Of a stretch of DNA of 64,000 nucleotides, positions 6,069 to 8,430 are shown one piece after another. The DNA comes from an uncultured Clostridia bacterium. Lineage in GTDB: Bacteria; Bacillota; Clostridia; Oscillospirales; Acutalibacteraceae. The stretch is taken from contig CAMFBH010000008.1 in NCBI GenBank assembly GCA_945948515.1, positions 1-64,000 on the forward strand. Reading direction: 5' to 3'. The position numbers were made by a program, and so were the translations under genes. The stretch's first letter is position 1, and each line of letters starts with the position of its first letter. A model generated the notes under the pieces. That model was not told the origin of the DNA. It worked only from the letters and a program-made list of their open reading frames with translations, and did not search any database.

Positions 6069-6148
6069 GTAGGGGAGGGGCTTGCTCCTCCCGTCTTATA
6101 TACGTCATCTTAACAATAACAAACGGGCGGAATAAATCCCGCCCCTAC
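6069..6148. repeat. Pair of inverted REP-like palindromes (BIME-like)
   Basis: 6069-6093 is a 25-base GC-rich imperfect palindrome (GTAGGGGAGGGG...CTCCTCCCG). 6124-6148 is a diverged inverted copy. The first is identical to 7527-7551 and to the complement of 7690-7714 inside the nearby transposase gene. They stand out by GC content in an AT-rich, gene-free stretch. A pair of inverted palindromes near a REP-associated transposase gene is the classic arrangement. Otherwise 5988-6420 holds only these palindromes and the 6180-6375 repeat. Confidence 0.8.
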
Positions 6149-6179
6149 AGTTCATTTGCGTTATTGTAACTAATAAATC

Positions 6180-6375
6180 TTGTCGTGATACCAAAATCAT
6201 CTGCCATCCCTTGTTTGCTAATGTTATATAAAAATGCATTTGAAATTTTACCGTAAATACCATAACGACAAAACCGAGAGCGACTAAATCACTCTCGGTT
6301 ATTTTATTGCTTATTCAAGAGGGAAAACTACTGTTAAAAGCATTTTGAAATCAGTTGTAGCATAGACTGCGTGTG
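6180..6375. repeat. Direct repeat R1 of about 196 bp (copy at 7868-8062)
   Basis: Aligns with 7868-8062 at high identity with a few small gaps and substitutions. R2 is the 3' end of the intact cupin gene plus its terminator and downstream DNA; R1 is a detached copy. Both share the AACCGAGAG stem hairpin (6272-6280 with 6292-6300). The pair brackets the lipoprotein and transposase genes. Confidence 0.85.
6311..6373 (-). pseudogene. Cupin gene remnant (last 20 codons)
   Basis: On the minus strand this encodes HAVYATTDFKMLLTVVFPLE then stop. That differs from the end of the intact cupin at 7998-8336 by one residue (T for P). Upstream coding sequence is missing. It lies inside repeat R1 and came from the same duplication. 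Confidence 0.85.
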
Positions 6376-6420: not shown

Positions 6421-7071
6421 TTAGCCGATTATTTCTGCATCATAATAATGCAAATTATCATTTTCGCTAATTTCTTTTGCGACAAATGTTATTTCCTGCC
6501 CATATTCAAGTGTGCTTGTATCAACATTCTCTGCAAAATATATCAGTTTCAGCACATTGCTACTTCCGATTTGGATATTAAAGGCGGGAGCGAAATCATT
6601 ATTAACGCCTTTTAGAATACCAGTAACTTCAACAGTATATTTTACAAGATATGCAACAGGCATTTGATAGTGACTATAATTAAAAGTGTATCCTGCGGCA
6701 TTTTCGGATTTATCGATGATTTCATCAATTGTAGTTCCAACAACCGTAACTGATTGACCCTGTTCCAATAGAACCAAGTCATCGATAGAAAGATACACAT
6801 CGATTATGTAGTTGGAACTATAAATGGGTGCTAATTCGATGTGGTCTTCTTCAATGTTTCTAACCATACCAGATAGCAATAATGTTTTATTGCAATACTT
6901 TTGCTTTGCCTTAACGATATTCTCTATAGAATCATTTTGAATATCTGAGGAACGGTATTCCTCTGCAATCGCTAACATTTCTTCCTTCGTCTTTGCTGCT
7001 TCGCTCTTTCCGCACGCAACGAGGGATAAACACATAACTGCTGCCAAGAGCAATGCAATAAACTTTTTCAT
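6421..7071 (-). CDS. Lipoprotein with OB-fold-like (tRNA_anti-like) domain
   Basis: A 216-residue predicted lipoprotein: basic start, hydrophobic stretch, lipobox LVAC with the anchoring Cys at residue 20. The mature part from about residue 55 (NKTLLLSGMVRNIEEDHIEL, then VTVVGTTIDEI and YTVEVTGILKG) looks like repeated beta-strand OB-fold modules of the tRNA_anti-like type found in secreted Bacillota proteins. Assignment is by eye and tentative; the function is unknown. The start has AAGGAGGTG at a good distance. The gene has its own promoter at 7276-7304 and a long structured leader. That leader ends in an intrinsic terminator just before the ribosome binding site, so expression is probably conditional. 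Confidence 0.8.
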   Translation of the reverse strand: MKKFIALLLAAVMCLSLVACGKSEAAKTKEEMLAIAEEYRSSDIQNDSIENIVKAKQKYCNKTLLLSGMVRNIEEDHIELAPIYSSNYIIDVYLSIDDLVLLEQGQSVTVVGTTIDEIIDKSENAAGYTFNYSHYQMPVAYLVKYTVEVTGILKGVNNDFAPAFNIQIGSSNVLKLIYFAENVDTSTLEYGQEITFVAKEISENDNLHYYDAEIIG

Positions 7072-7094
7072 AATTTCACCTCCTTAAACAAAAA

Positions 7095-7120
7095 ATGCGT
7101 ACAGCCGAAGCTATACGCAT
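7095..7120 (-). terminator. UUCG-loop terminator in the leader of the lipoprotein gene
   Basis: Read on the minus strand: ATGCGTA, T, AGC, a TTCG loop, then GCT, G, TACGCAT and six T. The stem is 11 bp including one wobble. It lies about 12 bases before the AAGGAGG site of the gene starting at 7071 and downstream of that gene's promoter, which is the position of an attenuator. Confidence 0.8.
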
Positions 7121-7144
7121 AAAAAACACATGGCTCCAACTGTC

Positions 7145-7269
7145 GCCAAACAAGTATCACATAGTCGCCATAATAACGGTATGCAAATAAGAGCATGCAT
7201 TTTTATCAAGAGATAAAAATAGCATACCTATAATTACGGCTAATTATTCACTTGTGATACTTATTTGGC
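7145..7269 (-). promoter_or_regulatory. Candidate structured leader RNA (closing stem 17 bp)
   Basis: Arms 7253-7269 and 7145-7161 pair over 17 bases with one wobble (GCCAAAUAAGUAUCACA with its partner). Inside lie a 7-bp stem GGUAUGC/GCAUACC and a 9-bp hairpin AUUUUUAUC, UCUU loop, GAUAAAAAU. The predicted transcription start of the 7276-7304 promoter falls at the outer edge of the closing stem. A terminator hairpin follows at 7120-7095, then the ribosome binding site. It could be an attenuator or riboswitch-type leader, or a palindromic mobile element that landed in the promoter region. I recognise no known riboswitch class. Confidence 0.55.
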
Positions 7270-7275
7270 TCTTTC

Positions 7276-7304
7276 ATTGTAGCATAGAGTGTATAAAATT
7301 GCAA
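7276..7304 (-). promoter_or_regulatory. Sigma-A promoter of the lipoprotein gene leader
   Basis: On the minus strand, TTGCAA (7299-7304), 17 bases, TACAAT (7276-7281). Transcription would begin near 7269 and include the whole folded leader. Confidence 0.7.
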
Positions 7305-7309
7305 GAAAA

Positions 7310-7332
7310 AAGGATGAACAGCGTTCATCCTT
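7310..7332 (-). terminator. Intrinsic terminator of the transposase gene
   Basis: 10-bp stem AAGGATGAAC (7323-7332 with 7310-7319), 3-base loop, T-run on the minus strand. It overlaps the transposase stop codon. Confidence 0.85.
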
Positions 7333-7831
7333 AAATGTTTGTGTTGTATTTATCCTCTGCCCATTTTGTTGGGTTTTCGTCAATATATTGCCATATTTGT
7401 TGATAATCAATATCATCACGAATGATGTGGTCATGGTATGAACGCTGAAACAAAATGTCTATTGGCAATAATTTCTTACATTCTAATGTTGATAATGATT
7501 TAAATGCACATATTATATCGGATACCGTAGGGGAGGGGCTTGCTCCTCCCGTCTGATTTTCTATCCTCATCAGAATGTGTATATGATTAGGCATAATTAC
7601 ATAATTATCTATTTTTACATTTTCGTATCTAATTTCTAAATTATTAATTTGCTCTTTGATACATTCTCCAAAAGGCAACAATTTTAATACGGGAGGAGCA
7701 AGCCCCTCCCCTACAATTACCTGTGACAATATTTCTTTTCTATCCTTGGTACATATCGTTATAAAATATGCACCACTTTGTGAGTAATCGTAATCTTTTA
7801 ACCTGTTTGGTTTTCTTGTTTGTAATTCCAT
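7331..7831 (-). CDS. REP-associated tyrosine transposase (RAYT, Y1 HUH family)
   Basis: A 166-residue single-stranded-DNA transposase of the TnpA_REP/IS200-like class. The N-terminal YFITICTKDRK motif, the metal-binding HUH motif in MPNHIHIL near residues 80-87, and the C-terminal helix DYQQIWQYIDENPTKW with its tyrosine are all present. Members nick REP palindromes through a 5'-phosphotyrosine. Two 25-base REP-like palindromes, inverted to one another, are translated in frame: residues 40-48 (VGEGLAPPV) and 94-102 (TGGASPSPT). These are insertions relative to the usual core. The frame stays open, so the enzyme may be functional. Further palindromes lie 1.2-1.5 kb away at 6069-6148. It is bounded by a terminator overlapping its stop. 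Confidence 0.9.
   Translation of the reverse strand: MELQTRKPNRLKDYDYSQSGAYFITICTKDRKEILSQVIVGEGLAPPVLKLLPFGECIKEQINNLEIRYENVKIDNYVIMPNHIHILMRIENQTGGASPSPTVSDIICAFKSLSTLECKKLLPIDILFQRSYHDHIIRDDIDYQQIWQYIDENPTKWAEDKYNTNI
7527..7551 (+). repeat. REP-like palindrome inside the transposase gene, copy A
   Basis: 25 bases identical to 6069-6093 and the exact reverse complement of 7690-7714. It encodes about TGGASPSPT in the transposase. Confidence 0.9.
7690..7714 (-). repeat. REP-like palindrome inside the transposase gene, copy B
   Basis: 25 bases, the exact reverse complement of 7527-7551. It encodes about VGEGLAPPV near residue 40 of the transposase. Confidence 0.9.
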
Positions 7832-7867
7832 AAATACATTTTATCATAAACAAATATTGAATACAAG

Positions 7868-8062
7868 TTGTCGCAATACCAAAATCATCTGCCAACTTTG
7901 TTTGCTAATGTTATATAAAATGCATTTGAAATATTAATCGTGAATTGGTAAACAACAAAACCGAGAGCGACTTAATCACTCTCGGTTATTTTATTGCTTA
8001 TTCAAGTGGGAAAACTACTGTTAAAAGCATTTTGAAATCAGTTGGAGCATAGACTGCGTGTG
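7868..8062. repeat. Direct repeat R2 of about 195 bp (copy at 6180-6375)
   Basis: Includes the last 21 codons of the intact cupin gene, its terminator hairpin and about 90 bases beyond. It matches R1 except for a few substitutions and short gaps. It is the likely source copy because the cupin gene is complete here. Confidence 0.85.
7959..7987 (-). terminator. Terminator of the cupin gene
   Basis: 9-bp stem AACCGAGAG (7979-7987 with 7959-7967), then TTTTG on the minus strand. The same hairpin is present in R1 at 6272-6300. Confidence 0.75.
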
Positions 8063-8336
8063 GCTTTTTAGCAGGCATAACAATAGCTTCACCTGCGTTG
8101 CAGAGATACACATTTCCGTCAACGGTAAACTGTCCTGTTCCCTCTAAAACAGTAACCATTGCATCACCTGTTGAGTCGTGTGTGCCGATTTCCTCGCCCT
8201 GCGAAAAGGCAAACAGTGTTACGCTGACTGCACTGTTTTGTGCCAAGGTTTTGCTTACTACCTGTCCGGGCTGAACAGTCACTTGATTTGCCAAGGCAAA
8301 TACTTCCTCGTGATTTACATTTTTGATAAATGCCAT
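7998..8336 (-). CDS. Single-domain cupin protein
   Basis: A 112-residue single-domain cupin. Motif 1 is GTHDSTGDAMVTVLEG, in which the second histidine of the usual HxH is not present. Motif 2 is PAKKPHAVYA, retaining its histidine. Small cupins bind a metal or small ligand; the actual ligand is unknown. The start has AAGGAGGATAAATA upstream. A second copy starts at the left window edge beside the 4Fe-4S gene. Here the companion 4Fe-4S gene is reduced to a 36-base tail at 8431-8466, with a hairpin element inserted in between. The gene itself is intact, so it may be expressed from a different context than its twin. Confidence 0.88.
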   Translation of the reverse strand: MAFIKNVNHEEVFALANQVTVQPGQVVSKTLAQNSAVSVTLFAFSQGEEIGTHDSTGDAMVTVLEGTGQFTVDGNVYLCNAGEAIVMPAKKPHAVYAPTDFKMLLTVVFPLE

Positions 8337-8349
8337 TTATTTATCCTCC

Positions 8350-8430
8350 TTAGGGTAACGGTAATAATCTGAACCACGGTTTAGCGTGGCAGATATTGCC
8401 CTTACTCTTCGTTAAAATACTCGTTAATCT
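8350..8430. repeat. Hairpin element (81 bp) inserted upstream of the cupin gene
   Basis: Compared with the left-edge copy, where 7 bases separate the cupin ribosome binding site from the 4Fe-4S stop, 81 bases lie here. They begin with the 17-bp motif TTAGGGTAACGGTAATA. They form a long imperfect hairpin: outer arms about 8352-8366 with 8395-8409, inner stem CCACG/CGTGG. The right half resembles 921-982. It looks like a small mobile palindrome. Confidence 0.65.

Follow-up and report, generated by a model that had tools for sequence, protein, structure and literature searches.

The leader preceding a putative lipoprotein gene on the minus strand of the window, the whole 64,000-nucleotide stretch of DNA analysed here, is probably a cis-acting, riboswitch-like transcription attenuator that belongs to a large Clostridia RNA family. 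We hold this reading with considerable confidence on sequence comparison alone, without transcript, read-through or ligand data. In the proposed mechanism, RNA polymerase would use the element's own extended −10 promoter and initiate at the 5′ edge of the closing stem P1. P1, an AAUA hinge, P2/P2b and an A/U-rich P3 would then fold into a long bent hairpin displaying the loop AUGCAUGCUCU, which would pair with GGAGCCAUGUGU just 3′ of P1 to form a pseudoknot. In the OFF state the pseudoknot would hold this strand, the terminator would fold and transcription would end after about 180 nt; in the ON state, with no pseudoknot, ACAGUUGGAGCCAUGUGU would pair with the terminator's left arm and loop as an antiterminator, and transcription would enter the gene about 20 nt downstream. 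Covariation or fixed position supports the predicted promoter, nested stems, pseudoknot and terminator, whereas the putative antiterminator fold rests on weaker covariation; that the two folds switch in vivo is inferred. The cellular signal that sets the balance between them is unidentified and is, by inference, most likely a small molecule or ion acting at the conserved core.

The element has the compact, aptamer-like core expected of a riboswitch (covarying P1, P2b and pseudoknot, with near-invariant loop and hinge nucleotides), and the sequence features expected of an attenuator: a promoter at the leader edge, a terminator before the coding region and a putative antiterminator, with modest covariation, exclusive with it. 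It does not qualify for membership in any named Rfam 15 family. The original prediction had matched the leader to no known riboswitch, and a scan of the window against Rfam 15 likewise returned no match at the gathering threshold; permissive scans, run on both the window and homologues, gave top scores far below gathering (for example, MicX, 25.2 against 75; trpB motif, 25.7 against 59). The RNA family is apparently undescribed, and no description of it was found in the open-access literature, with supplements and non-open papers outside the search. Fremin and Bhatt (2021; PMC8040213) listed 3161 candidate structured RNAs genome-wide in human microbiomes; the family is not identifiable in the main text of that paper, the part available to us, and a prior listing of fragments is not excluded.

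Architecture of the leader and its locus

The original prediction described a minus-strand TTGCAA-17-TACAAT promoter, a closing stem followed by GGUAUGC/GCAUACC and a further hairpin, and an 11-bp UUCG-loop terminator before AAGGAGG, together forming the layout of an attenuator. We recovered each of these elements at its predicted position, alongside an extended −10 TG (Table 1). Transcription is expected to begin at about 7269, the 5′ edge of P1, although the start is unmapped. The 204-nt leader has a minimum free energy (MFE) of −74.1 kcal/mol, compared with −43.8 ± 4.1 kcal/mol for dinucleotide shuffles (z = −7.4), and in the MFE fold P1 is lengthened to 20 bp. This z score, together with compensatory changes in hundreds of homologues from other genomes, argues that the fold is not due to chance. 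At the top of P1, the A and AAU columns of the internal loop are invariant or nearly so in alignment A1, and the AAUA loop lies directly past P1 in most copies; its role as a hinge is putative and inferred. A leader-peptide attenuator would require a short translated ORF with a ribosome binding site (RBS), and the window's leader holds no short ORF with a credible RBS, so this candidate was rejected.

Table 1. Coordinates of the leader element and the downstream gene in the window
Feature	Position	Strand	Details
Sigma-A-type promoter	7276..7304	-	TTGCAA 7304-7299, spacer 17 nt, TACAAT 7281-7276
Extended −10 TG	7284-7283	-	Part of TG-n-TACAAT 7284-7276; absent from the original prediction
Structured domain	7145..7269	-	Closed by P1; holds hinge, P2, P2b, P3 and pseudoknot loop
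P1 closing stem	7269-7253 × 7161-7145	-	17 contiguous pairs, one G-U
Asymmetric 5′ internal loop GAAUAAUUA	7241..7249	-	Top of P1; conserved AAUA motif
P2b	7178..7228	-	GGUAUGC 7228-7222 × GCAUACC 7184-7178; encloses P3 and pseudoknot loop
P3 hairpin UAUUUUUAUC-UCUU-GAUAAAAAUG	7198..7221	-	7221-7212 × 7207-7198
Pseudoknot loop strand AUGCAUGCUCU	7190..7200	-	Immediately 3′ of P3; predicted to pair with 7137-7126
Switching strand ACAGUUGGAGCCAUGUGU	7126..7143	-	3′ half of pseudoknot and 5′ arm of putative antiterminator (7143-7126 × 7118-7101)
Antiterminator 3′ arm GCGUAUAGCUUCGGCUGU	7101..7118	-	Overlaps terminator stem
Intrinsic terminator	7090..7120	-	11-bp hairpin 7120-7095, UUCG loop, U run to 7090
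Ribosome binding site AAGGAGG	7079..7085	-	
Putative lipoprotein gene, 216 aa	6421..7071	-	Signal peptide and lipobox LSLVAC; ATG at 7071

The surrounding locus contains several repeats. The upstream neighbour (7331-7831, minus strand) is an IS200-like REP-associated tyrosine transposase, single-copy in the genome, whose ORF holds two REP-like palindromes GTAGGGGAGGGGCTTGCTCCTCCC in inverted orientation, with a third copy at 6069. Flanking the transposase-leader-lipoprotein block, at 6172-6375 and 7860-8062, are two copies (87%) of the 3′ end of a cupin gene, whose 5′ end (8270-8350) is repeated (99%) at the contig start (1-81). The cupin repeats suggest a duplication or insertion at the locus.

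Homologues, predicted pseudoknot and putative antiterminator

BLASTN with the leader found matches, some of them short, in 27 of 148 relatives (own genome included), with up to 5 per genome. The original prediction had proposed a covariance search among related Clostridia; model R1, built from 25 sequences, found homologues in 144 of 398 genomes of the host's family, in 84 of 245 sampled across the order and in 65 of 245 sampled across the class. These samples and the phylum sample share genomes, and the fractions are therefore not independent. Phylum-wide, R1 matched none of 198 other genomes, with the own genome as the sole match among 199, an absence that also serves as a specificity control for R1. 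Six genomes examined more deeply carried 2 to 15 copies each. Carriers with names are uncultured Clostridia, Oscillospiraceae, Ruminococcus and Eubacterium, for the most part from herbivore guts.

Aligned copies follow a common plan: promoter, P1, AAUA, a variable P2, P2b, a U/A-rich P3 and the loop AUGCANGCUCU, followed by the return strands, GGCGACARUYGGAGCYAUGYGUUUUU, the terminator and the RBS. Across 114 aligned copies, the nested stems showed 280 cells with double changes compared with 85 ± 7 in shuffles. P1 was 99.6% paired, and 5 of its 7 scored pairs showed double changes; the corresponding figures were 88.6% and all 5 pairs for P2b, and 100% and 8 of 9 scored pairs for the terminator stem. 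P3 was 86.9% paired. The stem counts are biased in favour of the nested stems, since the model to which their alignment (A5) was fitted already included these stems, and the shuffle controls take no account of sequence relatedness. A first RNAalifold run on a MAFFT alignment recovered P1 and the terminator alone, P2 being too variable for sequence alignment; a second, shorter MAFFT alignment (A2) was poorer at the 5′ end and was left unused.

Comparison also revealed a pseudoknot, AUGCAUGCUCU × GGAGCCAUGUGU, that the original prediction had missed. Neither it nor the antiterminator is part of the model behind A5. Pairing between the loop and GGAGCYAUGYGU occupied 96.3% of cells in the 114 sequences, with double changes in 52 cells compared with 20.8 ± 3.2 in shuffles, and fell to 60% or less when the partner strand was slid. 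Taken together, loops also paired better with their own arms (−13.2 kcal/mol) than with permuted ones (−11.1 ± 0.25 kcal/mol), with none of 3000 permutations as good. Two members (L021:1513-1724 and L027:1500-1717) have an extra hairpin inserted around P3 and keep the pseudoknot in a stronger form (AAAUUCC/GGAGUUU).

The putative antiterminator shares the GGAGC strand with the pseudoknot and was paired in 90.9% of cells in the same 114 sequences. Its covariation was modest (29 double changes compared with 22.8; 19 of 500 shuffles), in part since the pseudoknot and the terminator place constraints on those strands as well. Arms nevertheless paired with their own terminators at −19.3 kcal/mol compared with −17.6 ± 0.28 (0 of 3000 permutations), and at least 10 arm nucleotides could pair with the terminator region in 78 of 114 sequences, compared with 17 of 1140 shuffled arms. 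The terminator and pseudoknot together average 8.3 kcal/mol below the antiterminator, with the cost of closing the pseudoknot not counted; given a plausible closure cost, we infer that both states would be near-equal in energy, as a switch requires. The competing pairings predicted by comparison are the pseudoknot and the antiterminator, rather than the UGGC/GCCA and AGCCG/CGGCU pairings originally put forward. The transcriptional type of the fluoride (crcB) riboswitch (RF01734; PMC13273304) has a similar arrangement: its aptamer is pseudoknotted, and one strand of that pseudoknot can instead take part in a competing stem beside an intrinsic terminator, but the fluoride aptamer is far smaller, regulates other genes and matches the family neither in sequence nor by model.

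Promoters and downstream genes across the family

A TATAAT-like hexamer (up to one mismatch) stood at exactly −12 from the first base of P1 in 68 of 84 copies, and upstream DNA was not part of the model in this count. The same fixed distance held in 30 of 35 copies of a second set, drawn mostly from other families and orders (98 of 119 with both sets pooled). In the first set, TG was found at −15/−14 in 94-96% of copies, with TTG at −35. Given this spacing, transcripts are expected to begin at about the first base of P1. A start downstream of the terminator, which would have refuted the original prediction, is not what these promoters indicate: in most copies the −10 places initiation at the stem's 5′ edge, and the order of promoter, domain, terminator and RBS is conserved in homologous leaders across Clostridia, as are the exclusive antiterminator and the covarying pseudoknot. 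At the other end, the start codon lies within 35 nt of the terminator in 108 of 140 distinct downstream ORFs (median 21 nt). No promoter fits in this interval, so expression from the element's promoter would need read-through.

The downstream genes tend to share a predicted destination rather than a pathway. An N-terminal signal or transmembrane-like segment, called by a crude rule, was present in 90 of 112 (80%) downstream ORFs of at least 130 aa, compared with 102 of 562 (18%) other ORFs from the same loci (P = 8e-37), and in 14 of 17 in the second set. Pfam matches comprised BspA-type leucine-rich repeats (26 of 129) as well as DUF6273, CHAP, ricin-type lectin, Big_2, SLH and zinc-ribbon proteins. 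This gene set implies exported and surface proteins as the element's targets, and none of the genes belongs to a metabolic pathway that would point to a ligand.

The leader is, from its predicted contexts, not tied to the lipoprotein; in other places it stands before genes for many unrelated proteins, most of them exported. The lipoprotein has no Pfam family and has homologues in only 4 other genomes (5 of 148 counting the window's own), and orthologous lipoproteins were rejected as a common target, the RNA mostly sitting elsewhere. The original prediction would have been undermined had orthologous lipoproteins lacked a homologous leader, and on this point the homologues inspected gave a mixed outcome: a remote homologue in L034 is preceded by a weak, divergent family member (21.5 bits), whereas the homologue in L030 has no leader upstream. 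The L034 member (1258-1426) is shorter, with the pseudoknot intact (AGGCUU/AAGCCU), and suggests a sub-family missed by model R1. Many identical copies beside unrelated genes had been named as another possible refutation. Copies beside unrelated genes do exist, but they lie in other genomes and are highly diverged with conserved structure, which indicates a regulon rather than an identical repeat.

Alternative readings and the possible signal

In 16 cases a further copy follows downstream without an intervening gene. Nearly all of these upstream members have their own promoter, and they retain their own pseudoknot despite having no directly following gene; they may be trans-acting RNAs, duplication leftovers or serial attenuators. 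One array (L085:2367-3334) consists of four tandem, mutually diverged promoter-RNA-terminator units, with a single short gene behind it that resembles an NYN/PIN-type ORF. A pure cis-attenuator leaves gene-less upstream copies unexplained, which counts against our main reading and in favour of a stand-alone, trans-acting small RNA gene of about 180 nt that the downstream gene merely adjoins. A strong extended −10 promoter and terminator in most copies would also suit such a gene, as would the terminated RNA being the main product. We consider this explanation unlikely, however, because the short distance to the start codon leaves no space for a second promoter, the downstream genes are strongly biased to exported proteins and an antiterminator overlapping the terminator would be needless for a small RNA. 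Furthermore, in the L085 array the loops of copies 1, 2 and 4 each have their own arm as best partner, an argument for cis pairing; for the loop of copy 3, the arm of copy 1 is a slightly better partner (−14.7 kcal/mol) than its own (−13.2 kcal/mol). A dual role remains possible by analogy with the Listeria Rli51 5′ UTR, a terminated leader reported both to attenuate the gene of a secreted protein and to give rise to a small RNA (PMC11394854). The organism is unrelated, and no structural or sequence relation to the family has been shown.

An attenuator of the kind we favour might instead have as its sensor a protein, such as an RNA-binding antiterminator, or another RNA rather than respond to a small molecule. 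This is possible but doubtful: the regulated genes are accessory surface proteins with no common metabolic theme, no ligand is indicated, and the AAUA hinge and P3 could form a protein site, but a pseudoknotted core of this extent and conservation is what ligand aptamers typically have, and no partner gene was identified in a search confined to GGDEF. The targets of PRD/LicT-type and ANTAR proteins are, moreover, much smaller hairpins. Among known ligands, c-di-GMP is suggested by the downstream BspA-type LRR, Big_2, SLH, CHAP and lipoprotein genes, since surface proteins are what c-di-GMP usually regulates in Clostridia, where c-di-GMP-I and -II riboswitches control surface and exported proteins from transcription termination platforms in several copies per genome. 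We give virtually no credence to a riboswitch of this type having escaped annotation. No Rfam family matches, c-di-GMP-I and -II included; the host genome, 99.9% complete, lacks a GGDEF domain (PF00990); and across 398 genomes the RNA and GGDEF are anti-associated (45 genomes with both, 99 with the RNA only; odds ratio 0.52, P = 0.003). With 99 of 144 RNA-bearing genomes lacking PF00990, the c-di-GMP link is largely refuted. It is also very improbable that the element is mobile DNA (a REP/MITE or recombination site) with the hairpin as a by-product, even with a REP-associated transposase directly upstream in the window and multiple, also tandem, copies in other genomes. A REP/MITE repeat requires multiple near-identical copies, whereas the leader is single-copy in its own genome; its homologues have diverged in sequence while keeping their pairs through compensatory change, and promoter, terminator and gene spacing are all fixed. 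Phage or plasmid origin was rejected, with one weak partial phage match, no plasmid record match and one viral contig.

If the riboswitch-like attenuator reading is right, about one quarter to one third of the Clostridia genomes sampled carry an unannotated RNA switch, in up to 15 copies each, before adhesin-like, lectin, peptidoglycan-hydrolase and lipoprotein genes. It would offer a handle on surface-protein choice in uncultured gut Clostridia and, as an orphan riboswitch candidate whose switching strand is defined, would make a ligand hunt and a compensatory-mutation test feasible. We suggest, more tentatively and short of an even bet, that the family is a new riboswitch class that senses an unidentified small molecule, perhaps a second messenger or gut signal, and sets the surface proteome, with tandem cassettes maybe releasing trans-acting RNAs. 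If true, it would be among the more widespread riboswitches in animal-gut Clostridia.
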